Assembly: GCA_015178975.1 (NCBI GenBank)
Contig: WHVD01000048.1
Location: 62,001 to 126,000 of the forward strand
Source of the DNA: Hysterangium stoloniferum
Lineage: Eukaryota > Basidiomycota > Agaricomycetes > Hysterangiales > Hysterangiaceae
DNA length: 64,000 nt
Direction: 5' to 3'
The notes under the pieces were generated by a model. That model made no database searches. It saw only the letters and a list, made by a program, of their open reading frames with translations, and was not told the DNA's origin. The position numbers were made by a program, and so were the translations under genes. Shown here piece after piece: positions 29,506 through 64,000 of the stretch. Numbering within the stretch: position 1 is the first letter of the stretch; the number at the start of each line of letters is the position of its first letter.

Positions 29506-32500
29506 CTAATTCTTGAAATAATAAATAAAATAAAATAGAATAAAATAAATTGAAATAAATTCGGGAAAATTAAGGGAAAATTCGTGAATATATACTAGAT
29601 ACATCACAGCTCTGAGTAGAGCTGGGGCATTTCGGAGGTCAGTGCTGTTTAGCCAGGAGTCCTCCTCAGGTCCATAGCCTTTCCACCTGATTCGAAAAAA
29701 CAGACGATTTCGAAGTTTCATGTGGCCAGTAATGGCTTCGACTTCGTATTCCTCCTCGTTTGAACTTAGCTCTCTAGGGTTTTTGAGTAGCTCCCTAGGG
29801 CCAAATGCTTCCGGGGATGAGTGATATTTCTTAAGGTGGGCTTGGTTGATGACAGGGTGCATTTGGTACTCCAGGGGTATTCTGAGTCTAAAGACTTGGG
29901 GATTAATTTTTTCCAGGACCTGAAATGGTCCGATGCGTCTTTAGATTAGTTTCCTTCCGCTACCCTTAATTTCTAGCAATTCTAAGGAATGGGGGTTGAC
30001 TAATACTAGATCCCCCTCTGAGATTTCTTCGACCAGTTTTCGATGCTTATTGTAGGATCGAGCTTGGGTTTCTTGAGCTTGGGCGATTGAGTCCCTCGCC
30101 ATTTGTCTGTGACTTTCCAATTCCACGATCCATGAGTCCACCATAGGACTTTCAGACAGTTCCCTGGGGACTACAGGATCGTCTCCCCCTAGTACCCTGG
30201 ACATTCCCCTCGGTAGGTATCCCATTAAGAGGAAGGCGGGAGCGTAGTTAGTCGAACTATGTATGGTGGAGTTGTAAGTGTTGGCTACTATCCCAATCCA
30301 TTTCGACCATTCTTCCTTGGCGGATGAGCAGTAAGCCCTCAGCATTTGTTCGAGGGTGGCATTCATATTTTCTGTCTGCCCGTCCATCTGAGGGTGGTGA
30401 GAAGAAGAGACGGCTAAAGTGGTTCCATATATCTTGCAAACTTCCCTCCAGAACCTGCACGTCCACCTTTTGTCTCTATTGCAGATAATCCTGGAGGGTA
30501 GTCCGAAAGGAGATGCCACTCGGTTTATGAAGATCTGTGCGAATCCTTCAGCGGACAAGTTAGAAAAGGTGCATTCACAGATAACAAAGCATGTCAGCTT
30601 GTCAACCACCATGAAAATGGCTGAGTAAGAGTCGCTGCCGGAAGTCGGTAATCCAGTTATGAGATCCATGGAGACCACTTCAAATGGCTTAGAAGGTACA
30701 TCAGCTGGTCTGAGGGCTCCCTGTGGCGCGGAGTGATCAATTTTTGTCTTCTGACAGGTGTCACAGCTGCGAGCATACACCGTGCAATCCTGTAACATTC
30801 TAGGCCAGAAGAAGTGGTCTTTCATAAGCAGGAATAGTCTACGTCCTGCAGTGTGAGCTCCTTCAAAAGGATTATCGTGTATCAGCTTTAGAATTGTGGT
30901 TGTCATATTGTGAATGCAGATCCGACTTTTCCAGTCCGAATCGCGAAAATACAACAACCCCTTTTCTCCAATGAAGAAATGTGAAGGGGTAGCTACGGCG
31001 TTTGGGGATTTTGGTTCCTCGATGTAGTAGCTTCTGAAGGCGGGGTCCTTCTGATACCCTTCCAAGAACTCTTTCAGGAATCTTTCATCGATGTTTACGA
31101 GCAGTTGAGGGTTTAGTGAACGGAATAGCGATTCATCCCCTTCATTGTCTCTGGGGAGGTTATACAAATCCCATTCGGTTTGTGGGGTGTCCTCTGGGGT
31201 TCCGATGGGTTCTACGAGTTCTTGTTGTGTGGCAAAGATGGCTCTCCTCGCGGGATTAGCTTCTTGTGGCTTCTCCTCAGTTCCTTTGCTGAGTGAGCTT
31301 GACACAATTGTCGGAATATCATCTCCAGCTGGACTCACTGAGTGGGGTACTCGTGGTAGTCTAGATAGGGGATCGACATTACTGTGTACTCGTCCAGCAC
31401 GATGTAGTATTTCGAGGCCTGGGTATGCTGCGTACACTGCCCCCCATGCAGCCAGTTGTCAATTGGTATTCTCATATGACCTGGCCCATTGTAAAGCGGC
31501 ATGGTCCGTGATGAGGAGTACGTGCTCTCCTTCCACGAATGGTTGGAAATGAACCAAACCTTCCTTAGCAGCTAATGCTTCCCTCTCTGTGGCTGAGTAG
31601 TTGCGTTCCGGTTTCTTGAGGGTATGACTCCAGTATGTGATGACCCGCTCTACTGTAATGCAGGTATCCTCAAATGTTTTTGCCCAGGAGTCCAAGTGAT
31701 CTCGGGAACCTTGGTCTTAAAATGGGTGACAAACGTTGGTACCGGTTTTGACTGCTTGAATGCTGATTTCACTTGGATATAGGTCTTCGTGTTCTTTAGG
31801 TCCCGTAGAGTCATTTTTTGTACTTGCTGCAGACAGCAACCTAGGGCGAAGTCAGAGGCATCCGTATAGAGACGGTAAAGCATTCCAATCACAGGATGTG
31901 CTAAAACTGGAGAAGAGCTCAGGGCTGCCTTGACGTTGTTAAAGGCTCGCTCCTGATCTACTCCCCAAGACCATCGCATTCCCTTTTTGAGTAGCGAGAA
32001 AAGTGGGGATACAGTCCATGCGTAGAAAGGTATATAAGCCGAGAAGTACAATACCATACCCAGAAAACGTTATTATTATTATAATACATTTAGAATATAG
32101 TTTTCCGCCCCTAAAACGTGGCAGTAAGCCCCGACTCGCGTTGTCCACAGACTGATGGCTCAATTTGACGCATATATCGACACCTGGTCTTCTTTAAAGG
32201 AGTTAAGAGGGCTGAAGTTCAGACACTTTAGCTGGGGTTGCTAGTTCCAATATGGCTCGTACTTTCTCTTGATGGGTCAAAAAACCTAGCCGTGACACCT
32301 TGTGTCCGAGAAGGAGAATAGAGTTGTAGCCTACATAGCATTTTTTGGGAGAAAGACCAGCCGAAATTATTGCTTGTAATACTCGGTCCAGGTGCTCGAT
32401 ATGATCTTCCCAGGTCTTAGAAAAGATTACTATATTGTCTATGTAGACTAGACAGAATATCCACAGATAGGGTGCCAGCGTGTTTTGCATGATTCGCTGG

Positions 32501-34458
32501 AAAATGGAAGGTCCGTTCCTTAATCCGAAAGGCATCCTTCTGAATTGCCATAGTCCTCGATGTGATTGAAAGGCCATTTTGTGTCGGTCTTCCTCCAGCA
32601 TTTCTAGTTGGGTAAAACCAGCTAGGGCATCGAACGAGGAGAGAACATTGGATCCCGAGAGTGCTTGCATAATTTCTGATTGCCGGGGCAACGGGAACTC
32701 ATCCGGGATAGTGAGGCTGTTCAGTTTTCGATAATCAATGACCACGTGAGGCTTATTATTACGATAGACTATGAAGGCAGGAGCTCCCCAAGGGCTTTTC
32801 GAAGGTTCAATGACTCCTTGTTGAAACCAGGTGTCCATTTGCTCGTCTATAACCTTCCTGTTGGCAGGGGAAGTTTGAAACATCGGTACAGACACTGGTT
32901 GTGCATCGGCTTTCAGCAGGATAGTGGCCTTACTGTCTACTTGGCCCAGTCTTCCATCAACTCCAAACGCTTGCACGTTCTTAGTCAATATTGAGCTAAG
33001 GCGAGGCATAATGTCAGGAGGGACATCAGGTCCTAAATTGACCAATTTATGCAGATCCTCTGAGGAAAGCTTCTCCAAGGAAGGAACTTCCGAAGTCTTT
33101 GGGCCTGTGGGATCAAAGTCATCTACTGCCTCGTTCCCTAAGGATACCATAGATGGTTGAGGACTGGAGGTATTGTCTTCTTCCAGCTTGGAGATGCTTT
33201 CTATGAAGTGGGCGATCTTCGAGCTTGCGACTCGCATCGATTCCTCTTCTGCTTGGGAACGAGGCTTTTGGGCCCATGCTCGGGCATCGTGAATTAGACC
33301 TATGATCTCTCCTCTTCTAATAGTTTGAGGAGTTAAGGTCAGATTAGCCAGTAGCACCATACTCTTTTCTTTAGAGATAGCGGTTGTGGGAGCAGCGAGG
33401 ATAGTCCCATCTTTGTTCTGTAGAACTATGCCCTCCACAATCCATTCCCCGTCCTCCAGGTCCCTGGTAAAGATGGGTATTAACCTAACTGACTCAGACT
33501 CTATCATGCAATCTTCTAGGGCTCTCACGACTCTCTCAGCACGCATGCCCTTATCGGGTTTGGATGTTAAATTAGTCGGCGGGATTCACTTGTCTTCCAG
33601 CGAGATCTTGTTAACTGAAAAGGCCAACGGGACAGGTTCATTGGAGGAGCTGGCAGGAATGAATCCTGCTCTCCCAGGGAGGATTAGTCTTGATCCCAGG
33701 GGTTGATCTCGCAACGTTCCTATCTCATAGTTGATATGGAAGTCTTCTCCTAAGAGGATAGGTACGGTCATCCCTCGTACTACATAGGTTTCTGCATTAA
33801 ATCGCAGCAGGGTTCCTTTGTCGTCCTTAAGGTAGACGGGAATGTTAATATAACCCAGTACTCGGGCACTCCCAGTAAGCTATATTAATTGCAGCTTAAG
33901 TCCTTGCTTCAGTTTAGGCTGATCCTTCAGTTCCCGGTAGAATTCCTCTGACATGAGGGACAAATCGGCTCCGGTATCCAGTCTAATTTTAATTGGTTCT
34001 TCCCAATCGGGACTTCCTACTCCTCCAAATATATGTAGTGCTGAAACGCCAACACTAGAATATCCTCCCGGTGGTTCCCTCTTTCGGTATATGATTGAGG
34101 CATCTTCTTTCATTAGCTTACTGGATCGGGGATATTGTATTCTAGGTCGTTTCACCTCCTTTCTAAGGGCTAATTCAGCATCCCAACGGAGTCGTCTGTT
34201 CAAGACAGTCACGCCTGTTTCCCCCTCAGAGTCCGATTCGTCACCGATCAAGAGGTCAGGAGGAAGTCCGGGGGCGAAGGGAAAGGTTTCCTCCTCCGTA
34301 TTGTTTCTTATGTCCTCCATCAGATGTTGCTCGTTAAGGCAGGCAACCCGATCGATAAACATTTCCTCATCTGCAATTTCTTCAATCGATGGCGGTTTGT
34401 TGTTGGAAGAGTTCTTAAATCCTGACAGACCTTCACGGTGCTGACAGTGCACTTCCAA
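29506..34458 (-). pseudogene. element B pol (protease, RT, RNase H, integrase, chromodomain)
   Basis: Protease: RLDTGADLSLM near 33950-33990. RT: FQQGVIEPSKSPWGAPAFIV, VIDYRKLNSL, FGLRNGPSIFQ and VYIDNIVIFS, where the second catalytic Asp of YxDD is Asn (AAT at 32436-32434). RNase H: LYTDASDFALGCCLQ, then NYSATEREALA. Integrase: a zinc-binding part with CDTCQKTK, the catalytic SMDLITG Asp, a second block degenerate as CNRDKRW, and GQTENMN with the Glu. The chromodomain spans about 29590-29770 (YEVEAITGHMKLRNR, FFRIRWKGYGPEEDSWL), the usual heterochromatin-targeting end of chromoviruses. Stops lie between domains (33893, 33591, 32203, 29941). Confidence 0.9.
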
Positions 34459-39284: not shown

Positions 39285-40853
39285 TCAATCTACATTTATG
39301 GGGCTATGTTTTTGCCCAACTTCAGCAATCTCCTGTGGGAGCTCTGCTATCTCCACAGGAACCCCATCCTCATCTGAGCTGGGCTCCTTGGAACTCCTGA
39401 TTTGTGGTTCCACATACACATACACATATTCACCATACTCTGCCAGGAATGTCCAGAACTCCTCATGGAGTCCCATGAGATTCTTAGCCACAACCCACTT
39501 GTGAGGAGTATGCTTTTACCACAGTTCATTATGGTAAAACACTCCTTTTATTTTATTCATATTTTACACATTTTATTCATATTTTTCTATCCTTTATATT
39601 CTTCGAATATTGCACCATTTTATTAGTTTGAAGCTTTGTGTATACTTGTGGGTGCACTCGGCACCAAATGAAACTCAGACACTTTTTACCCCGCAACCAC
39701 AACTTACACAGACACCCAGTTAGTGTCCCATAAGTTGTGATTGGGGTATCGTCTCGACCATTACATACGGGCTTCAACCATCCACGCAATCAGAGTTTTG
39801 AACTGTACCAGTTGAAACTCCATTTATATATCAAATCCGCGTGGACTACATCTGCGCTACTCTACCATTCAACTCTCTCGTTACTCTTTCTACACTGGAG
39901 CAGTCACTTGGAATCGCACTTGACAGTCAATTCTCTTTACTCGTTTTAGCTCTCTACCTTACTTTAGATAGCTACTTCACTCAATCGTATTGAACTAAGT
40001 AGTCAATACTTATTTGGCCTGTATTAGACTTAGACAGTCAATACATCTACATATCATACCTAAACGGTCGATATTCTTCATATATAGAACAGTTAGAACT
40101 TCCACCACTCTTCACACCACTGAACCTGGTTGCTATTCTCAAGCAACTCATTTTGGGCCTCTATGCCATCAGCTATCTGCACCAACACCTCCTCCAAGCC
40201 CGTGGGCCCACTTGCTTCCCATGCCACAGACCCCATGGGCTCGTGGACAAGTGAGCACCTCGCTTTGAGGTGTACACACTGTCAACAGCCCGGTCCCCAC
40301 CTCGATTTCCAATGGCAGTCAGTGTTCTGGTCATTACAACCAGAGCACTGCAGATTGTTCTTCACTTGTAGGCAGATTGGAGCCACTTTCCTTGCTTTCT
40401 GTTGACATGGTTGGTCCCCGGAATACCCACGGACCCGAGACTTACCTTTTTGGGGCTCTCTGGCTCCCCCTCAGACTCTGATTCAACCTCTACCACTTTG
40501 CACTAACAAGGAAAGTCAGTAAACACAAACCATGCAAATATTGGGGCTTATCTTTCCTGTGGCTCCCGCAGCCTTGTCCACAGCTGCCTTGGCTTGCTCC
40601 ATGGTGACCTGTGCAGCCTCCTCCTCATCCACTTCCTCTGCTCCTCAGCCTCTTGCTCTGCAACCAGTGCCACCTGGTATTCCCTATCCAGTGCCTCCTC
40701 GGCATCCTTGGCCTTTTTCTCTGCCTCCTCATTTTTGGTGCTGCTCCTCCCACTGCACCAGGATTTGGGCAGCAGTGAGCAGAGCCTGATATTGGGAGCC
40801 CATGGAGGCCTGGCAGTTGGCACTGGTTTACATGGCATTGGTTTGGGATCCAT
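39285..40853 (-). pseudogene. antisense accessory gene of element A (coiled coil plus Cys-rich domain), split by a solo LTR
   Basis: Runs opposite to element A. From 40853 leftward: a charged helix (STKNEEAEKKAKDAEEALDR, AEQEAEEQRKWMRRR); intron 1 at 40551-40503 (donor mutated to AT, TTTACTGAC branch, TTAG acceptor); an acidic linker ending GEPESPKK; intron 2 at 40445-40399 (GTAAGT…AACAG); then CSGCNDQNTDCHWKSRWGPG, C, stop, QC, which is the CxxC-x6-C-HWK…C…C finger with one stop. The solo LTR 39500-40116 follows, and the acidic C-terminal part continues at 39491-39285. Homologous genes occur in C, D and E. Function unknown; nucleic-acid binding is a guess from the Cys pattern. Confidence 0.6.
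39500..40116 (+). repeat. solo LTR (related to element B family)
   Basis: 617 bp, TGTGAGGAGTATGC…CCACCACTCTTCACA, flanked by a perfect CCACT target duplication (39495-39499 and 40117-40121). Its interior (TTTTATTAGTTTGAAGC, ACTTGTGGGTGC, AAACTCAGACACTTTT) aligns with the element B LTR read on the opposite strand, so it is a diverged relative left by LTR-LTR recombination. Confidence 0.88.
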
Positions 40854-41920: not shown

Positions 41921-41936
41921 AGAACAGATCATCATA

Positions 41937-43543
41937 CAGTGGGTCAAAAAACTGCCCCAATGTTTGTGCATTTTAGAAAGATTGATATTGTGTGAAGGAA
42001 TGACATCAGCAAAAATTCTGAAAAATTCACATGATATACTAGCCCATGTTGGCTATCTACCAACTTAAGAAATCATGTGATTCCAATCAAAACTCATTGC
42101 TCAATAAATCAAACAAAATAATCACTCATTGGGGCAGTTTTTTGACCCTCTATTATTTTACAATCTAATACTTTGTATGACCCCCCTTTGCCTTTAAAAC
42201 TGCCTGTATCCTCCTAGGCATGCTTTCTATTAGCTTCTGACATGTCTCTGGTGGTATTTCAGTCCACTCCTTTGCCACCCTGTCCCATAATTTATGTACT
42301 CCTTTGGGTGATATGTCATATTGTTGGAGTTTGGCCTTGAGGTGTTGCCAGAGGTGTTCAATGGGATTTAGATCAGGGGATTGGGCAGGCCAATTCATAG
42401 GAATGATGTTATTGTCAGATAACCACTGGTCTGCCTTTTTTGAGGTATGTTTTGGATCATTGTCCTGTTGGAAGTACCACTTATCCTCAGCCATCTCCAA
42501 ACTTTCAATGCTCTCCTCCACTCCCTCCTCCAAAATCTCATAATACTGCACTGTATCCATGTTCTTCTGCACCTCTATCAGCTTCCCCACCCCATTCCAG
42601 CCCATACACCCCCAAACCATCAAGTTATTCCCCCCTCCATGTTTGATAGTTGGTGTGGTGGTCCTGTCTGATACTGGTTCCCCTTGTTGCTTCCAAACAT
42701 ATACCTTCCCATCTGACCCAATCCTATTGATTTTTGTCTCATCAGTCCACAACACCCTCTTCCAGTCCTCCATAGTCCAATTTTCATGGTATTGGGCAAA
42801 CTTTAGATGTTGCTGACGATGAGACCCCTTGAATATAGAGACTTTCTTCTTTGTTGCTGACCTAAAGCCAGCTTCCTTCAACACATTCCTAACAGTCTGA
42901 GGAGTGACAGAGGTAGATATGATGGAATTTATAAATTGGGTGGCTTGGACAGCATTGTCAAGCTTCCCAGAGCTGATTTAATGGATAATTGACTGTTTAT
43001 CATAAGGGGAAAGCTTGGAAGAATGGCCACCAGGATGATTTTCCTTATCCCCCTCTACCTCTCTACTGATCCTGCCAATAGTACCTTTCCCAGACCAGTC
43101 CTAGCTTGAATTTGACACTGGGAATACCCCTCATTGAGGAGAAAAATAACAGAAGAATGCTTTTCTGCAGAGATGGATTTCATAGTGGTGGTAAGGAGTC
43201 AAGGAGATGAATGAACAAAGTTCAGCATGCCAAATTGATACAAATAAGGTCACATGACATGTTGATGATTCATATGATCCACTCCTACCTTATACTGGTG
43301 TGTAATATTGAAAATCAGAGAAAATGATAGAGGGTCAAAAAACTGCCCCAATGAGTGATTATTTTGTTTGATTTATTAAGCAATGAGTTTTGATTGGAAT
43401 CACATGATTTCTTAAGTTGGTAGATAGCCAACATGTTCTAGTATATCATGTGAATCTTTCAGAATTTTTGCTGATGTCATTCCTTCACACAGTATCAATC
43501 TTTCTAAAATGCACAAACATTGGGGCAGTTTTTTGACCCACTG
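41937..43543 (-). mobile_element. Tc1-family DNA transposon with 214-bp terminal inverted repeats
   Basis: A 1607-bp element flanked by the TA target dinucleotide on both sides (41935-41936, 43544-43545). The terminal inverted repeats are 41937-42150 and 43330-43543. Each repeat is itself bounded by CAGTGGGTCAAAAAACTGCC at the outer end and the inverted version GGGGCAGTTTTTTGACCCTC at the inner end, so each end looks like a small palindromic element. It lies 11 bp outside element A. Confidence 0.93.
42165..43183 (-). pseudogene. Tc1 transposase (DD34E), nearly full length, with one frameshift and one stop
   Basis: ATG at 43183 (MKSISAEKHSS) opens the DNA-binding part. A one-base deletion occurs in the ARTGLGK region (around 43100) and an in-frame TAA in the following segment (around 42980). 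From 42884 the frame is open for 239 codons to the end. The catalytic triad is visible: WTDETKIN (Asp), FQQDNDPKHTS (Asp) and SPDLNPIEHLW (Glu), with 34 residues between the second Asp and the Glu, so DD34E as in Tc1. The C-terminus LIESMPRRIQAVLKAKGGHT is typical. Overall length (about 340 codons) fits an entire Tc1 transposase, so only two lesions separate it from an intact one. It would cut and paste at TA sites. Confidence 0.88.
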
Positions 43544-43643
43544 TAATAAAAAGTTGACATATCAAAGCATAACCAGATAGTACCAGTATAACTTGACAGG
43601 GGTGTAAATGGGGTTTGATCGCCATGAAGGTATACATCAGTGT

Positions 43644-44169: not shown

Positions 44170-45182
44170 TCACCTGTGTATCTTCTATTTCTGACCTAAT
44201 TAGCTTGCCGCATAGCCCCCTGAGCCCCGACCTAGTTAGAATGAATAAGCTGTTTTGCCACACCCTGCTGGATGGTCCTGCACTTCCCAGCTGCTAGACG
44301 AGTCAGCCTTCGCTTGCAATGCTCCACGTGACCTCTAGTTGTACACAACTGTACATAGCTGACATAATGTGTCTCCCTGCACTTTGCTTGTCCCACCTGC
44401 CGCCATTTCATTCCTGGGCTTTGCTTTCCTATCATTTCATGGGAAAGAAGTGCAAATTAGGGCTCTCTTCAAAGGTCTCTGTATCTAGTGTTGGGCCAAA
44501 TGGATGTTTTGTAACTTCTAGGATTACTACTGTGCACATACGTCAGAATGCCGCCAATTTTATTCAAGAACGTCAGGAAAGGTTGAAATGTAAGTAAATT
44601 ACACTTTATTACATATAATAACATAATGAATTTATGATGCCAACATCAAATTGTTTAGAGATATTTCGGGGATTTTGAATGCGGAATATTTGTGTGCTGG
44701 TGTACCACACCCATCATAAATTTATTATGTTATTATATGTAATAAAGTGTAATTTACTTACATTTCAACCTTTCCTGACGTTCTTGAATAAAATTGGCGG
44801 CATTCTGATGTATGTGCACAGTAGTAATCCTAGAAGTTACAAGACATCCATTTGGCCCAACACTAGATACAGAGACCTTTGAAGAGAGCCCTAATTTGCA
44901 CTTCTTTCCCATGAAATGATAGGAAAGCAAAGCCCAGGAATGAAATGGCAGCAGGTGGGACAAGCAAAGTGCAGGGAGATGCATTATGTCAGCTATGTAC
45001 AGTTGTGTACAACTAGAGGTCGCGTGGAGCATTGCAAGTGAAGGCTGACTCGTCTAGCAGCCGGGAAGTGGAGGACCATCCAGCAGGGTGTGGCAAAACA
45101 GCTTATTCATTCTAACTAGGTCGGGGCTCAGGGGGCTATGCGGCAAGCTAATTAGGTCGGAAATAGAAGATACACAGGTGAT
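44170..45182. repeat. large palindrome (two LTR copies head to head), 471-bp arms
   Basis: Left arm about 44169-44639 and right arm about 44712-45182 are near-perfect reverse complements around a 72-bp loop. Both arms show the same 92-codon frame (MLHVTSSCTQ… / MLHATSSCTQ…), which is a by-product of the palindrome, not evidence of a protein. The right arm continues outward to TGTTATGACC at 45248 on the minus strand, which identifies it as the 3' LTR of element C; the left arm is an inverted partial copy of that LTR. Confidence 0.88.
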
Positions 45183-45248
45183 GTCAGTAGACGGTAGTAT
45201 CCTCAGGGACCGTCAGGTTGCAACATGGTTGTGACATGGTCATAACAG
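44712..45248 (-). repeat. 3' LTR of element C (partial)
   Basis: On the minus strand it begins TGTTATGACCATGTCAC, like the LTR start of element A, directly after the polypurine tract AAATGGGGGGATAC (45249-45262). The far end merges into the palindrome loop and cannot be defined. Confidence 0.7.
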
Positions 45249-45567
45249 TATCCCCCCATTTGGCCAAAATTCGAAGGAGGCTGAAATCTAGATCTTGTAT
45301 GTAAACTTGTCAGGTATGGGTGGTGTGTCAAAACATCATGTGACCTGGTAAAAATTTACATATAAACATTTGAGGGGTGCTGGCACTTAAATTTTCAACT
45401 TTTTGCCTTCAACCACAATGACAATGGGTTTGGGATTGAAACCCTTCCCATTCAGGCCGACCGTCGCCCCCTTATCAGATCTGAGTGGACCCCCGAACAT
45501 GCAAGAGTGTCGATGACTTCTTGAAGAGAAGAGAAGGCGTGCAAGGAGGAGGAATGCAAGGAGAGGG

Positions 45568-45780
45568 AATGTTGAAATATATAGTCCCTAAGAAGAGCTC
45601 AGTCTCGTATAAGTATAATGGACTCATATATACCTAAGAAGAGCTATTGTATACAGTAAGTGCATATACTAAGAGAGAAAGGATCGTTCTGTGCTCACCT
45701 CAGTCTCGTATAAGTATAATGGACTGAGGTTAAGCTATGTAGGTTATCCCTTTATATATTCTACATAAACAAAAGGACCA
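45568..45780 (-). repeat. copia LTR-like fragment
   Basis: AGCTCAGTCTCGTATAAGT and CACCTCAGTCTCGTATAAGT, each followed by ATAATGGACT, match the reverse complement of the paired motifs in the copia LTRs at 56.7 and 58.1 kb. No target duplication was found. Confidence 0.45.
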
Positions 45781-45825
45781 TGTGCTCATATGTGAGACAT
45801 GTGGATGAGTGGAGCCTGATCGTGA

Positions 45826-46699
45826 TGACTGATCATGTTGTTACCACACCAGTATCACCGTTATTCAGACAGTCCCCAAATATGTTGACCTGCCACATAT
45901 ATGGGGTGCCTTTTGTCTTTAACAGGGAAGAGCTGAAGGTGATAGAGGTGGAGGAGAAGTGGTTGGCAGAGGAGGAGGCAGCTCACAAACACTGGGAAGC
46001 TGAGCTTACGAAGAAGAAGAAGCAGGAGGAGGCTGATCAGGTGTGAGAAGAGGAGGTGAAAAAGAAGTGGGAGGGTTAAGTAAGTCAGAGGTTTCTTATC
46101 CTTGTGACCTCACTGATATTCTTCTACAGCACAAGGCAGTGACACCATCAGATTCCAATGATGAAGAGGACAAGGAGGACAAGGAGGACATGCCAGGGCC
46201 TTCGAGTCCCAAGGTATGTTCAGACTCCTATTATTTTAATTTTCTAATTTTCTTTTGTTTTTGGTTATAGAAACAGAAATGTGCCTCCAAGGGGGGGCCC
46301 AAAAACAACCCAAAGTGCAATTGGTGCACCAAACATGGTTGGACTTGCCATCCACAGGCCAATGGTCGGGGCCAGACCTGTCAAGAGTGTGCCAACCAAA
46401 AACTTGGCTGCATCTTCCTGGATACTGATGGGAATGGGTCTTATCAAGAGCAGCAGGCAGATGCCTTAGAGGAGAAAAATCAGATTATGCACACCTACTT
46501 CTTGGAAATGACTCGGTTCCGATATGAGCAACTGCGACAACAAGGCCTGTTCACTGAACAATTGTGACTATTGGGCATGGAGCTGGAGAAACAAACCAGT
46601 GCCATATAGTCTCTCGGGAACAACTCAAACATTATTTGCAGGTGTCAAGTTCCGATGAAGTTGGGCCTGGAGTTGGGATATCAGGGAAAGTCAGTGAGG
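45826..46699 (+). pseudogene. antisense accessory gene of element C
   Basis: Opposite in direction to element C pol. A charged helix (EVEEKWLAEEEAAHKHWEAE, LTKKKKQEEADQ) leads to intron 1 (about 46075-46129, TTCTACAG acceptor), an acidic linker (NDEEDKEDKEDMPGPSSPK), and intron 2 (46214-46270, GTATGT…GTTATAG). Then comes CNWCTKHGWTCHPQANGRGQ followed by TCQECANQKLGC: the CxxC-x5-C-x10-C-xx-C-x6-C arrangement in its most complete form here. The C-terminal helix (EKNQIMHTYFLEMTRFRYEQ) ends in stops. Compare 60749-61838. Function unknown; the cysteine spacing suggests a zinc-binding module. Confidence 0.6.
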
Positions 46700-46792
46700 A
46701 GGTGTCAGTGGCTGTCTAGTTTTTAAAACAAAACAAACAGCAACAGAAAACATAAGACATAGTTGGAAAAGGGGTCGGGAACCGCATGAGAT

Positions 46793-51023: not shown

Positions 51024-51565
51024 TTATAACAATGAATTTGGATCATACAGGGTGGATGTGTTAAGATGACAATTTTCTGGTGTGTGGGGAGATTCAACAC
51101 AACTCTCCAACCACATGGAATCCAGAGAGTTGCTTAATCTTTTTTTTGACTCAGTGGCTAGCTTAGCCAGTTGTGACGTTGTAGCCATATTGGCCAATCG
51201 GGCTTTTGTGGCCTTTGGGCATGGAGTGACTTGGTGTCCAGGAACATGTGCACAACAAACAAAAGTTGTTGTCCATTCAGCATTGCTTTCCTTGTGGTAG
51301 GAGCTTGCCATCAGAGCTGAGTTTGCCAGTAAGCTCAGGTTTGTTTGTCCTTGTCTTGAGACTTATTCAACTATTTGCCCTTGCCTTTTTTGTCATTAGA
51401 ACCCTTGTTGTCAGACTTCTTATCAGAGTTCGAGTTGCTGGTATTGTTGGTGTTTTGATTACCAGACTTGTTGGGATTCTTGTTGTCCAATGATTTTTTG
51501 TCTGATGGGTTTTCGTGACTGATTTCTGAGCATTGTTCCCAGTATTGGGCATGAAGGTCCCACAC
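51024..51565 (-). pseudogene. element C gag C-terminal remnant
   Basis: An Asn/Lys/Ser-rich tract (NPNKSGNQNTNNTSNSNSDK) precedes a degenerate zinc knuckle (VPGHQVTPCPKATKA). This matches the equivalent Asn-rich tract and knuckle of element A. The upstream gag is lost at the junction with the foldback at 51552. Confidence 0.75.
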
Positions 51566-52258
51566 TGAACATGGTAGTATCCAAAATGTATTGCAGTTGT
51601 TAAAATTGCTATAAGCTTGGGAAAAATAAGATAGCTGGCCTGTTTGGGATGCTGTCAGGGCCAGCCGCCTTCAATGGGGTGAGGAGCTCGATGGCCCGGC
51701 TGATCTCTTCTTTGGTGACGCAGAATTGACGTCACGGTGAATGCTCAATAAACAGGAACTGGGAGCGAGGGGATGTATGACAAGATGCAAAACGAGAACG
51801 AGTTATTGGCCCGCAATGAGAAGAACAGCGAAGAGGATGATAATAACGGAGGAGATAGGATAAATGGTCGATGACGCCCAAGAAACTTTTCAATCCCCTT
51901 GTCCTGCTTGTCCTTTCCTTTCTTTCTTGGGCGTCATCGACCATTTATCCCATCTCCTCCGTTATTATCATCCGCTTTCGCTGTTCTTCTCATTGTGGGC
52001 CAATCACTCGTTCTCGTTTTGCATCTTGTCATACATCCCCTCGCTCCCAGTTCCTGTTTATTGAGCATTCACCGTGACGTCAATTCTGCGTCACCAAAGA
52101 AGAGATCAGCCGGGCCATCGAGCTCCTCAGCCCGTTGAAGGCGGCTGGCCCTGACAGCATCCCAAACAGGCCAGCTATCTTATTTTTCCCAAGCTTATAG
52201 CAATTTTAACAGCTGCAATACATTTTGGATACTACCCTGTTCAGTGTGGGACCTTCAC
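51552..52258. repeat. LINE-derived foldback (palindrome), about 335-bp arms
   Basis: Left arm 51552-51885 and right arm 51923-52258 are near-perfect reverse complements with a 37-bp loop. The right arm (plus) encodes VTKEEISRAIELLSPLKAAG then PDSIPN, the N-terminal block of non-LTR (LINE) reverse transcriptases (KAPGPDGIPN). The left arm encodes the same on the minus strand. Confidence 0.88.
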
Positions 52259-55720: not shown

Positions 55721-56690
55721 TAGGCTGAATTCCCATAGAGGTGATTAGGTACTGAGCATTGAACCATCAGTTATCCATTATGTGTTGTGAAAAATCATAT
55801 GTCTGGAAGTGGAGAGTTTCAGCAGCCAGGTCTGAGTATAAAAACTTGCCAAATATTCAATTAGTGATTTTTCTTTCTTTAACCACATCTCGTGTGTTCA
55901 TTCATCATCCTTCAATTACCACCACGCCCAAAAAATCAGAAACCAAAATTGCTGAAATGTCAAAAGTGGAGGAACTTCAATGCAAATGACAGATGTTGGA
56001 GGAGGTAAGGCAACAACAAGAGGAGGAGGAGAGGGAGTTGATGCAGGAGTTGAGGGAGGTGGAAGAGATGGAGAAACATGAGTTGGAGCAGGTTAAAGTG
56101 GAGAAAGAGATAGAGGAGCAGAGGAAGGAATGGTTACAGAAGATAACAGAAGATCAGACATTGCAGGATGAGGTGGAGAAGAAATGGCAGGATGCTGAAG
56201 TGGAAGAGCAGTGGCTACAGGAAAAACAGGAAGGAAAGGTGAGTGAACTGGTAAAATTCCATTTGTTTCCAATAATGATTCAACAACAGTGGAAATCCAT
56301 TGAAGTGGATGAGGAAGAGGTTGGGCCTTCAAGTCCAAAAGTAAGTGATTTTGTAAGAGTTCTGGAAAATGGCTAATATCTGAAACAAAAACAAAAAACA
56401 AGGGCCCTGGAGTGTATGGAGACTGCCCATGAGTTCCATGCCAGCAATGTGTGGACTGATTTGTAAAATGGGGTGGAACCTGTTTCCTGTGGTAAACAAT
56501 GTTCCATGCACTATTGCTGTAAAGTGAACTCCAAAAGCAAAGAAAATTCAGAGGGTCAAAAAAGTGGGGAAACTGGACAAAACAGAAAAGGTGGTGATCG
56601 TGGAAACCTCAGAAACAACCAAACCTTCAGAAACTGTATGGCTGGGCCTGGACAATGGTACCAGTATAGGACTTCACAGAGATACTGTAC

Positions 56691-58496
56691 TGTTGGAATT
56701 CAAGCATCATGGACAACATCAAATTCTGAGACAACAGAATCAAATGGTATGGATATTTTTAGCCACACAATGGGACCACTAACCCTTGTGCCTCTTGTCC
56801 TATTGTTCTTTTGACATATATTAACCGTGTTTCCTATCATGCTAGACCTCAGTCTGTTATACACTATCGTTATATGAGACTGAGGTGAGTAACTCTTTAA
56901 TATCAATACCTAAATATTTATACTAATAATCTATTAGCTACAATATTTAGGTACTTAATCTAGTCCATTATACACTATTGTTATATGAGACTGAGCTGCA
57001 TTATTTAGACCTTGCTTTCTAACAGGTTATGGGCCTTTGCTTTTAAGCAGGATCTTTTTTTTTTTAACTTATTACTACCCAAACTTCCACAGATGCTCTT
57101 GTGCCATCTATTACTCTCATCCATACCAACATTACCTACATAGGGCCCAAACTCAATAAACTTAAATCAAACTATCACCCTTGGCTCCATGCTGCTGACC
57201 TTTTTATTACCCTCACTGGACTCTCTGGCTATGTTGATGGTACAGTCTCAGAACCTAATGATACTGAACCTCACAGCAGGGCTAACTGGCTGGCAAACAA
57301 CTCTCTGGCTGCTGCTCTCATTATCTCCACTGTGGAGACATCTGAACAAGAGTACCTTGATCGCAAATTAGGTGCCAGGGCCTGTTGGGAGGTTATCCAA
57401 AACTGCCACCAAAGTGAGGGACCCATCCACCAGGTCCAATTACTGCAGGAAGCTCTTACAACTCAATGTGCCCATACTACTCCCCTGCCTGTCACAGCTG
57501 AGAAGATCTGTTCTATGGTTGACTGAGCCTACAAGATGGGCAACATTTCTAAGGACCTTCTCAAATGCATTGCTGTCTTGGGTTCTCTTGGCAATGACTT
57601 TGGGAACATGTGGTCCATTATCACTCGCCATATCTCTGCTGTCATTAACTCTACCCCTTTTACATCAACTCAACTTCATGTTTATGATACCTGTCATAGT
57701 ATTAGTGGTTATGCTTTTACTTCAGGTTCAGGCATTATCTCATAGGGCACCAAAAAGAAAAAAACCATTGCAGCTTCATCATGTGAGGCTGAATACATCG
57801 CCACTTTCGAGGCAGTCAAAGAGGCCTTACTCAATGGCATTTGCTTCTCTTGTATGACTTCCACAACTGTCTTTTGTGATAACAATGCTGCCATAAATTT
57901 ATCTGAGGATCCACTACTCCATTCCCATGTCAAACATGTCGATATTAAATATTATTTCCTCTGTGAGCATGTTCACACTGGTGATTTCAACCTTCAGTAT
58001 GTCAACACGAAGGATAATTTTGCTGACATTTTTACCAAACCCCTTGAACCATCGAAATTCATACGCCTTCGCAGCTTCTTGGGGCTATGCTAACTAAGAC
58101 CCTCCCATGTGTGAGGAGGAGCTGATGTTGTCCATGCTGAGGAGGGGTGTTGGAATTCGAGCATCATGGACAACATCAAATTCTGAGACAACAGAATCAA
58201 ATGGTATGGCTATTTTTAGCCACACAATGGGACTACTATCCCTTGTGCCACTCACAATGTCTTTACCACTCCTATTGTTCTTTTGACATATATTAACCAT
58301 GTTTCCTATCATGCTAGACCTCAGTCCATTATACACTATCATTATACAAGACCGAGGTGAGCAACTCTTTAATATTGATACCTAAATATTTATACTAATA
58401 ATGTATTAGCTACAATATTTAGGTACTTAATCTAGTCCATTATACACTATTGTTATACAAGACTGAGCTACAATATTTAGATCTTGCTTTCTAACA
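56691..58496 (+). mobile_element. internally deleted copia element, 1.8 kb with two LTRs
   Basis: The 5' LTR is 56691-57024 and the 3' LTR 58148-58496, both starting TGTTGGAATTC and ending TTTCTAACA. GATAC appears before (56681-56685, with five extra bases TGTAC before the LTR) and after (58497-58501). Just inside the 5' LTR is GGTTATGGGCC, a likely primer-binding site; a purine tract GAGGAGGGG precedes the 3' LTR. Only gag and the end of RNase H remain. Confidence 0.88.
57094..58093 (+). pseudogene. copia gag fused to RNase H tail by deletion
   Basis: From 57094: ITYIGPKLNKLKSNYHPWLH, SGYVDGTVSEP and LGARACWEVIQNCHQSEGPI form copia gag (UBN2-like), with a TGA at 57524. Immediately afterwards the frame changes to the RNase H tail TIAASSCEAEYIATFEAVKE, VFCDNNAAINLSEDPLLHSH, VNTKDNFADIFTKPLE. 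Protease, integrase and RT are absent, so this copy is non-autonomous and depends on others for movement. Confidence 0.85.
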
Positions 58497-59069
58497 GATA
58501 CCATGAATGTGATGCTTTTTATTGGGTTGGAGTTGATGAAGGCTTGAGAGACTCTAGAGTGCCATAACAATATAACAATATCCAAGAGAGGGGTTTCCAG
58601 ATGATGAATCAGAACTTCCAGAGATAGAACAATTGCTTGGAGAAGGTAATGGCTAGTACCAGTATAATTGCAGTTTCTGAAAGTTATGCAGGCAAGGAAA
58701 AAGGCAAGCTGAAGGGGCCATTGGCAGATATGGTTGAGGAGAGGTGAGCTTCAGGGGAAAAGCCAGAAAGTGAAGATGAGGAGGTGCAGGAAATGTTGAG
58801 GGGAGTGGAAATTGGGACAGAGATTGCAAATGAGATGGGAGTTGAAACAGAGGAAGGATTTGGAATACCAGAAACCTTGAAATAATTGTATCATTATTTT
58901 TAATAATTGACTTGCACAAACATTTCTTGGTGTGATCTTGAAAATCTTCTGTGAAAGAGAGCAAAGACAGGTAATTGTCAGCAATATCAGAAGTGTCAGA
59001 AAGGATTGGAAAAGGTTGGAAATAAGACAGGCAGAAAGGAAACAGAAATCAGAGTGCCAATAAAGGTCC

Positions 59070-60710: not shown

Positions 60711-60748
60711 ACAATATGACCATTATTCATCACTACCCCAGAAGATTC

Positions 60749-61838
60749 AGATGCCGAAATTTCCATGCTTCAAAAAATGTCGAAGGTCAAAGAACTTCAA
60801 CGAAAATGACAGAGGATGGAGGAGATGAAATGACGACAAGAGGAGGAGGAAAAGGTGTTGATGTGGGAGTTAAAGGAGGCTGAAGAGGCGGAAAAGCGGG
60901 AGTTGGAGTGGGTGAAGGCAGAACAGGAAGTGTGGAAACAGAAGATGGCGGAGGATCAGAGGAAGAAGGAAGAGGCGGAGAAAAAACAGCAGAGGCTGAG
61001 GTGGCAGAAAAGAGGAAGGAGGTAAGGGAGGGAAAGGTAAGTCTAAACAATAAGTTTCCATGTTTTCATCCGATAACTATTGGATACAACAAAAAGCCAT
61101 GGAGGTAGAGGGAGAGGGAGAGGCTGGGCCTTCAAGTCCAAAAGTAAGTGACCTTGTAAACAATTGGAAGTTGACTAATTTCTGGGACAGAAACAAAAGG
61201 TCAAAGCTCCGGAATGGATGGAGGTCATCCACGACAGTCCGTGTTACCACTGTTCAATTCAGAAGATGACATGCTGGAAACAGAAGGTAAAATGGGGTGG
61301 GGCTTGTTATCCATGTGCAGCTCTCAAACTTCCATGCACTCTCACTGTGAAGAGAGTTTCCAAAAGTGAGAAGGCTCAGAGAGCTGATGACATGGAAAAT
61401 TCGGGAACAGCCAAGATTGTGGAAACTGGAGTGCCGAATACGGATAGTACTGGCATCGAGCTCCTTAAAGACACCATTGATGTATTGGTTTTTATCGGGA
61501 CAGAACTTATGAAAATGTGGGATGCACTGGAGTGCCATAACAATATCCAGGAAAGAGGTTTCTGTATGATGACCTGGAATTTCTAGAGGCAAAACAAATT
61601 CCTGGAGAAGGTAATGGTTAGCATCAGCGTTATCGCAGTTTCCGAAAGGTTTTCCAATAAGGCAAGGGACCAGCCAAATGATCTGTTGGCAGAATGTGTT
61701 GAGAAAAGGTGGGGGTCAGGAAAGGGGCCGGAAAGTGAGGATGAAGAGGTGCAGGATATGGTGGAAAGTGCAGAGATTGCAGATGATATGGGAGTTGAGA
61801 TGGAAGGTGGATTTGGGGTGTCAGAGACTCTAAGATAG
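60749..61838 (+). pseudogene. antisense accessory gene of element E (best-preserved copy)
   Basis: A coiled coil (VLMWELKEAEEAEKRELEWV, KQKMAEDQRKKEEAEKKQQR) with two TGA codons where Arg is expected is followed by intron 1 (61037-61096), an acidic linker ending AGPSSPK, and intron 2 (61144-61190, GTAAGT…GGACAG). The finger is CYHCSIQKMTCWKQKVKWGG then ACYPCAALKLPC. A helical region follows (DTIDVLVFIGTELMKMWDAL), with a TAG at 61585, and an acidic C-terminus (GPESEDEEVQDMVESAEIAD) ends at 61838. The whole would be about 320 aa. It lies antisense between E's chromodomain and its downstream end, and is collinear with the genes in A, C and D. Family unknown to me. Confidence 0.65.
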
Positions 61839-61930: not shown

Positions 61931-64000
61931 TTAAAGTGAGGATAAAGGTCTGGGTTTACTCAGATAAGCTGTGTGGAAGTCAGTAACAATTTCCATAGCG
62001 TGTCCAAGTTCCGTAGCCAATATCCATGAAGTTTCCTTGTCCGTACCTTCACAACCTGCCCATTTGACTAGATAGAGCAATTTACAAGTACATTGGTGAT
62101 TGTCGATTCTGGAATCCAAGATCTCGGAAACTTCAAATTCAGGTTCTCCGTCAATGATGACTGGAGGGGGCAGAGGTTGAGTATGTTCTGGGATATTGTT
62201 AGGAACACAAGGTTCTAACATGGAAAAGTTGAAAACAGGGTGGACTGCTCACATACTATCAGGAAGTCGGAGAGTCCATGAAAGTGAATCGGCTTGTGCT
62301 ATAATTTCAAAAGGGCCTAAGAATTTCTCAGCAAGTTTTTTAGAAGGTCGGGTGGTTCAGAAGAATTGAGCTTTTACAAAAACCTGATCACCAATTTTAA
62401 AATTAGGAGGCAGGATCCTGTTTTTGTCTGCGGAACATTGATAATATTCCTGGGTGGAAAAAATAGCTTTCCAAAGTTCTTGATGCAACTCGTCGAGATT
62501 GGTAATAAATTCTTGAGCACGGATAGAAGCCAAATCTTGTTCGGAATGTACTGTGAGATTCGGATTATAGCCTTTGTTGGAAGAAAAGGGAGAGATGCCA
62601 GTAGTTGCATTCAGAGAGTTATTGTAGGTGAATTCTGTGATCGGAAGAAGGGATTTCCAGTTGTCCTGTTGATAGTTGCAATAGATGTAGAGATATTGTT
62701 CCAGTGTTTGATTAACGTGTTCCGTTTGTCTGTCACCTTCTGGATGATAACCTGAGGTGAAGTGTAATTTCATGTCGAGGGCTTTTCAAAGGGCCTGGAA
62801 GAAATGGGAGATGAACTTGGAGCCTTGATCGGGAGTTACGTGAGATGGAACACCATGTTTGGAAAATATGTGAATAATGAAAAGTTCCGCTAACTGTAAG
62901 GATGTGATTGTATCATGAGTGGGCATGAAAATGCCTTGTTTCGAGAATCAATCCACAACAACTAGAATGGATGTAAAGCCTTCAGAAGTCGGAAGTTGTT
63001 CAATAAAATCCATGGAAATTGAGTTCCAGGGTTTTTCCAGTATCAGAAGTTGCTTGAGAAGGCCATACAGCTTATGTCGCTGGGTTTGAGAGCGTAAGCA
63101 GGTAGTGCATGACTTACAGAACTGGGTTACAAAATCTCGGAGGTTGGGCCAAGTATATTCTCTACGGATTAGACCAAGAGTATTGTTAATGCTGTAATGT
63201 CCGGAGATTGGATGATCATGTTTGTACTGAAGTATGCGTAGAGTCGGAGATTATTGGAATCTGGAATGTAGATATGTCCATTGAGATGGATAAAACCTTG
63301 AAAGTCTTGTGACCATTGGGGTTGGTCGGGATTATCAGGAACTTCTAGGTGTGGCTTGAGAGCTGGGTTAGAAGTGAGTGTGGAAAGGATATCTTGATGT
63401 AATTGCTCAATATCCATAATCATGATGCTTCACATAATTGGATAGTAGAGGGAAGTCGCTTGAATAGATGTGGAAAGTTACTGTGTTGTAAAAACCAGTT
63501 TCAAGTTATGCAGATTAACAACGGCATAGTTACTTTCCCCCTCTTTAGGATAGACGTCCCATCGTCGAGTCATCGCATCTGGTTTTCCACCAAGATGTCC
63601 GGGTCAGAAACGGATAATCATGTTGAAAGTGGAAAGGAATTTGGACCAGCGGGCTTGCTGGTGGGTCAAATGTTTAGTGGTAGAAAAATATTTGAGATTT
63701 TTGTGATCAGTAACGACGTCAACGGGAGTTGCAGAACCTTCGAGGTAATGACACCAATGTTTGAAAGCTGAAAAAATTGCCAAACGTTCCTTGTCATGAA
63801 CATTGTAGTTGAGTTTGGACATTGAAAGTGTCTGAGAAAGGAATGCAATCAGATGAATTTCACCATTGGAATATTAAATGGAAAGAATTGTGGCAATTGC
63901 ATAATCAGAAGCATCTGTTTCCACAATAATCAGAACATCAGGTTTCCAATGAGAAAGAATTGGGGTGGAAGTGAAAGCATTTTTCAAAGTCTGGAAAGCA
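61931..64000 (-). pseudogene. gypsy element E pol, running off the window edge
   Basis: From the edge leftward: RNase H (LNYNVHDKERLAIFSAFKHW, DVVTDHKNLKYFSTTKHLTH), integrase lead-in (MIMDIEQLHQDILSTLTSNP), zinc part and catalytic core in broken frames (62780-63170), KLHFTSGYHPEGDRQTEHVN with the catalytic Glu, SADKNRILPPNFKIGDQVFV, and the chromodomain at 62221-61931 (FEVSEILDSRIDNHQCTCKL, LVKWAGCEGTDKETSWILA). In-frame TGA replaces likely Arg codons at several points (FF-stop-TTRPSKK, RF-stop-PGHLG, SM-stop-AVHPV). The 5' half lies outside the window. Confidence 0.85.

Follow-up and report, generated by a model that had tools for sequence, protein, structure and literature searches.

Why would a retrotransposon keep an intron-bearing gene on the strand opposite to pol, and what could the product of such a gene do for the element? 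The question is raised by a 64,000-nucleotide (nt) stretch of the genome of Hysterangium stoloniferum (Agaricomycetes, Hysterangiales; ectomycorrhizal according to an excerpt of PMC7550596), hereafter the window, which holds four Ty3 retrotransposon copies (A, C, D and E). Each of the four carries a three-exon gene lying tail-to-tail with pol, between the chromodomain and the 3' long terminal repeat (LTR). A preliminary description of the window had reported four homologous genes in this placement and a constant order of coiled coil, introns, finger, helix and tail, and both statements held.

Gene structure across the family

Copies in the genome were located by using E, C and A as probes, and 37 E-type copies were retrieved with their flanks; for the C type, 7 loci besides window copy C were compared. 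The aligned E-type rows were picked for their similarity to E, which is itself decayed, and are not representative of the youngest elements: all three exon lengths are in frame in 22 of the 37, and one row has neither a stop nor a frame change. Copies with an intact 5' part share a single order, namely LTR edge, complement of the polypurine tract, TATA box, ATG, exon 1, intron 1, exon 2, intron 2 and exon 3. In copy L051 the exons comprise 111 codons, 16 codons (18 in E) and 215 codons plus a stop, respectively; all introns are in phase 0, and exon 2 ends in SPK.

A TATA decamer (AGTATAAAAA or a near variant) is present in 31 of the 37 E-type copies, and in 28 of those 31 the ATG lies 58 nt from the decamer start. 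Among C-type copies, a TATA box stands 56-57 nt 5' of an ATG in 5 of the 6 examined. With exon 3 proteins only 27-33% identical between the two types, this promoter spacing is better preserved than most of the protein. Splice sites are conserved as well across 35 E-type copies: the intron 1 donor is GT in 33 and GC in 2, with acceptor AG in 32, and intron 2 has both GT and AG in 35/35.

The junction of exons 2 and 3 is spanned by a K-K/R-x-K/R motif in 32 of 35 E-type copies, so that the spliced product would read SPKKxK directly 5' of the cysteine cluster; A reads SPKK, then KARK. Motifs of this kind are typical nuclear signals. Downstream of the cluster a long helix is predicted, and the product ends in an acidic tail, which in copy L048 has 14 D/E and zero K/R in 36 residues.

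Purifying selection on the antisense frame

The gene alignment held 35 rows including window copy E, after removal of L037 (5' part rearranged) and of L057 and L058 (near duplicates of L059); the pol alignment held 29 rows including the reference L052, with L026, L029, L040, L042, L043, L057, L058 and one low-coverage row excluded. Counting was restricted to columns with at most two states, and a change was called shared when present in at least 4 copies. Singletons were taken mostly as post-insertion mutations and shared changes mostly as inherited from active elements. In exon 1 of the E-type copies, TGA frequently accounts for an in-frame stop at a codon that is CGA in other copies (a CpG change), and at one exon 1 position at least half of the 35 rows carry a stop; the TGA/CGA pattern suggests decay of methylated CpG.

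Over all columns of the gene frame, nonsynonymous and synonymous counts were 102/31 for singletons (omega 1.24) and 109/100 for shared changes (omega 0.53; Fisher p 5e-6 on a first count of 101/31 versus 108/100). Without CpG columns they were 93/29 (omega 1.07) and 32/52 (omega 0.23), respectively (Fisher p 5e-8). The integrase/chromodomain region of 29 copies gave 135/44 (omega 1.11) for singletons and 64/57 (omega 0.59) for shared changes (p 6e-5), and, without CpG columns, 126/37 (omega 1.12) and 5/25 (omega 0.10). Purifying selection acts on the antisense frame, and as clearly as on integrase. The preliminary description had proposed a dN/dS check on this frame and had reasoned that a conserved antisense gene implies a function useful to the element; the gap between shared and singleton non-CpG changes supports that reasoning.

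Of the five other frames of the gene, four give omega ≥1.9 when shared non-CpG changes are counted. The fifth, the mirror sense frame, is at omega 0.33, a low value that arises because it and the gene frame have their third positions in common; opposite pol, the mirror frame gives the same spurious effect (omega 0.19). Stops number 244 in the mirror frame of the gene and 95 in the gene frame itself; positions at which at least half of the 35 rows have a stop number 6 and 1, respectively. Shared columns silent in one frame only number 9 for the gene frame and 3 for the mirror frame (14 versus 6 when minor counts of 2-3 are added), and the corresponding singletons number 4 and 9. No stop-free conserved sense frame opposite the gene was seen in the E-type rows.

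Copy number and association with a chromodomain Ty3 element

The E-type signature occurs at 277 places in the genome (at most 2 mismatches) and the C-type signature at 99; reversed controls gave 0 in both cases. Exon 3 matches lacked a stop in 104 of the 150 scored among 932 candidates, a list biased to well-kept copies. By coordinate comparison, at least 34 of the 40 top-ranking matches to the E integrase region (E included) have the gene in position beside them. Its place between pol and the 3' LTR, its orientation opposite to pol and its presence in most copies are those of an antisense extra gene (aORF-3R).

A database search with the pol frame of L052 scored 7961 entries, 7916 of which are relatives at E ≤1e-20. 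Among the 120 of these 7916 that were listed, 6 bear Agaricomycete names, and the proteins with which the L052 frame aligns (over 93-100%) carry PF00078, PF17917/PF17919, PF17921 and PF00665 in most rows, and PF00385 in part of them. Judged by the domains of these aligned proteins, the host is a chromodomain Ty3 element whose pol would encode reverse transcriptase, RNase H, integrase and chromodomain. Pol segments of the E-type frame are about 60-76% identical to those of A, C and the C-type copies, which makes the gene the faster-changing of the two. At informative non-CpG sites the distances computed from the gene and from pol agree (r 0.66; 0/2000 permutations as high), which indicates that the gene travels with the element; over all sites in 28 copies, r is 0.01 (805/2000 permutations as high), which we ascribe to CpG decay.

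The cysteine cluster

The preliminary description gave the finger as CxxC-x5/6-C-x9/10 and left its class unnamed. The spacing is CX2CX6CX10CX2CX6C in C and E, with X9 in the middle in A, which is the classical fungal Zn2Cys6 spacing and fits the consensus of that family (PF00172; CX2CX6CX5-12CX2CX6-8C). Searching the pattern in six frames of the window returned 3 matches only, in A (with one stop), C and E. Across 35 E-type copies 204 of 210 cysteine cells are preserved, and the six cysteines are invariant in a 14-row alignment of E and C types. Cluster, linker, helix and acidic region follow one another in the order of Gal4-type regulators. The pattern of cysteines suggests that the gene product belongs to the Zn2Cys6 family. 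Two results leave this assignment tentative: in Pfam, PF00172 did not reach its cut-off, with sub-threshold hits for 3 sequences out of 21 and a top score of 11.6 bits where 21 are required, and structural matches to Gal4, Lac9, Put3, Ppr1 and Leu3 were weak. The present gene has the same cysteine spacing as these fungal factors but differs from them in standing below the Pfam cut-off, in being borne by a retrotransposon and in having a long charged N-terminal coil ahead of the cluster.

Relatives and known antisense genes

The preliminary description had proposed a profile search for relatives. With exon 3 this search matched two H. stoloniferum protein fragments and none other up to E 1, and the whole L048 protein had no homologue at E 0.001 in a database search; the homologue search needs shared 5-residue words and may miss distant relatives. 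Searching with pol gave no confirmed match in IMG/VR and two distant relatives in GTDB genomes; three 31-residue matches of the cluster in IMG/VR were taken as chance. Other mushroom proteomes may contain hypothetical proteins that combine a coiled coil with a cysteine cluster, though nothing in the searches made here supports this. HBZ of HTLV-1, too, is encoded antisense at the 3' end of its retroelement and is a nuclear coiled-coil regulator, of the bZIP class and without a zinc cluster; it resembles the present gene in antisense 3' placement and coiled coil, and no relation is claimed.

Antisense genes of HTLV are mentioned in an excerpt of PMC11963269, and antisense extra genes are known from LTR elements such as the plant elements Retand and Grande (excerpts of PMC11963269 and PMC7264820); the same excerpts of these reviews treat the function of such genes for LTR retrotransposons as an open question. 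As described there, the plant genes are like the present one in position, orientation, presence in most copies and a suspected nuclear or DNA-binding role. Those of the Retand type have a TRP28 domain (PF04195), for which the present gene gave no Pfam match up to E 10, whereas the present gene has a Zn2Cys6-spaced cluster and two introns and lies in a fungal chromodomain element. The brtn gene of Boty (Botrytis cinerea, Sclerotinia) is likewise an antisense extra gene in a fungal chromodomain element, a comparison made by description in excerpts of citing papers (PMC7264820, PMC8365987, PMC4227169) and not by sequence. A search of the literature, with few subscription journals covered, returned no description of an antisense Zn2Cys6 gene in a retrotransposon. 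Antisense extra genes are already known; one with a Zn2Cys6-spaced cluster and two introns in a fungal chromodomain element is a new variety.

The four copies in the window

In E (forward strand), the part of exon 1 homologous to the family, which encodes the charged coiled coil, spans 60720..61036 according to the 37-row alignment and its translation. It is followed by intron 1 (61037..61089; donor GTAAGT, acceptor changed to CAA), exon 2 (61090..61143; acidic linker with GPSSPK at its end), intron 2 (61144..61190; GTAAGT to CAG) and exon 3 including the stop codon (61191..61838; zinc cluster, long helix and acidic tail, with one internal TAG). The six-cysteine cluster found by pattern search lies at 61242..61337 (CX2CX6CX10CX2CX6C). 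About 95 nt beyond the end of the gene begins the 3' part of pol on the opposite strand, which was traced by tblastn with the L052 frame from the chromodomain end at 61934 to 64000, where it runs off the window. A start at 60749 had been proposed for E. Homology to the relatives already begins at about 60717, with other sequence upstream, and for this reason E lacks the family ATG and promoter. E is a pseudogene, with stops in exons 1 and 3, an exon 1 length out of frame and the altered intron 1 acceptor.

C, also on the forward strand, retains more of the 5' part: the LTR edge (TAACA) and the complement of the polypurine tract at 45243..45256 (boundary by reading), and a TATA box at 45361..45366, 57 nt 5' of the ATG. 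That ATG is at 45418, not at 45826 where the gene had been thought to start; exon 1 (45418..46079) is broken at about 45570-45923, where some 350 nt are inserted. Exon 2 of C (46130..46213) is an acidic linker ending in GPSSPK, and exon 3 (46271..46720) contains the six-cysteine cluster at 46316..46411 (pattern search); the exon 3 end is approximate, the first in-frame stop being at 46565-46567, and the tail is shorter than in relatives.

The A gene (39285..40853, reverse strand) is interrupted by a repeat at 39500-40117 and has its six-cysteine cluster, with X9 in the middle and one internal stop, at 40255..40347 on the same strand (pattern search). The nested repeat recurs at many other places, and the A probe gave 3855 first-look candidates; copy L010 apparently has an insertion too. 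The D gene (55890..58886, forward strand) is homologous to E at 55955-56396 and 58496-58863 (69%); nested sequence interrupts it between 56396 and 58496, and by reading its finger has decayed. The D insertion (56691-58497) is flanked by direct repeats (93-95%), and its plus-strand frame presumably resembles the end of a Ty1/copia polyprotein; Pfam gave no match on 57372-57857.

Other elements lie nearby. A Tc1/mariner-like DNA transposon at 41935-43545 has 225-nt terminal inverted repeats (97%) flanking a frame with a DDE_3 domain. One fold-back, just upstream of the C LTR edge, is at 44170-45181 (470-nt inverted arms, 98% complementary, 72 nt apart) and a second at 51552-52257 (281-nt arms, 98% complementary, 144 nt apart). 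Another retroelement, with integrase and reverse transcriptase domains, is on the reverse strand at 29941-33585 and has no Zn2Cys6 pattern nearby.

Discussion

We read the gene as an accessory gene of a chromodomain Ty3 lineage whose product would be a nuclear DNA-binding regulator of the element's own transcription, with a rough probability of 0.5. A TATA promoter of its own, just inside the 3' LTR, would drive transcription on the strand opposite to gag-pol, and the RNA would be spliced twice. The protein would enter the nucleus through the basic motif PKKxK formed at the exon 2/3 junction, dimerise through its coiled coils, and bind zinc and DNA with its Gal4-type Zn2Cys6 cluster, the acidic tail being the probable acting part; its most likely job would be to regulate the transcription of its own element. 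The introns, being antisense to the genomic RNA, would not be spliced from it and would survive each cycle, which may be why an intron-bearing gene persists in a retroelement and suggests that the gene entered the element unspliced.

A fuller version, in which the spliced Gal4-type factor is made from a private antisense promoter, recognises its own LTR and controls sense transcription, while antisense placement saves the introns, is more tentative. CGG, whose enrichment would have hinted at the protein binding its own LTR, was not enriched there (16.0/kb in the LTR against 15.5 in gene plus pol). A 7-nt tandem array RGTYRGA of 3 to 14 units lies beside the LTR edge in 30 of the 32 copies with a locatable edge (36 looked at); in L041 it is far from the edge. 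An example is L026:4924-5018, and array length varies among related copies. CGG triplets in the array resemble what we take to be Zn2Cys6 half-sites, the LTR overall not being CGG-rich.

Instead of regulating transcription, the protein might serve the integration complex as a nuclear or chromatin factor: it would anchor that complex to DNA or chromatin and, jointly with the chromodomain, steer integration. The same cluster, helix, coil and basic motif would fit such a factor, and antisense proteins of plant elements have been suggested to take part in retrotransposition (excerpt of PMC7264820). A promoter of its own would, however, have the protein made apart from gag-pol, and cluster, helix and acidic tail stand in Gal4-type order; we consider this explanation unlikely. 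Somewhat less likely still is a captured host regulator carried as cargo, whose action would be directed at host genes or at rival elements. Introns could point to entry as unspliced DNA or in antisense, and Zn2Cys6 regulators are typical of fungi, but the searches made found no homologue beyond the fragments of this species and no source gene, and the presence of the gene in element types so divergent in exon 3 favours a long-standing element function. Among the roles offered in the preliminary description, DNA binding is the one favoured by the cysteine spacing, and capture of a host gene stays hypothetical within the reach of the searches made.

That the antisense RNA alone matters, pairing with genomic RNA to tune silencing or copy number around an incidental frame, is improbable: such a transcript would overlap with the element's 3' part, and antisense transcripts are discussed as sources of double-stranded RNA in plant elements (excerpt of PMC7264820), but selection acts at the codon level, as the comparison of frames indicates, and introns and 3' flank are about as variable as the coding exons. 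The artefact named in the preliminary description, a frame that only shadows a sense-strand coding frame, would account for the low omega of the mirror frame but is excluded for practical purposes by the excess of mirror-frame stops, the balance of one-frame-silent columns, the TATA box and splice sites on the antisense strand and the same effect opposite pol.

A single genome here contains hundreds of copies of an antisense extra gene, and in many of them the third exon is open. The anatomy of the gene suggests a specific function that can be put to the test, namely that a zinc cluster binds DNA. The case also offers an intron-bearing gene inside a retrotransposon, the persistence of which antisense orientation can explain.
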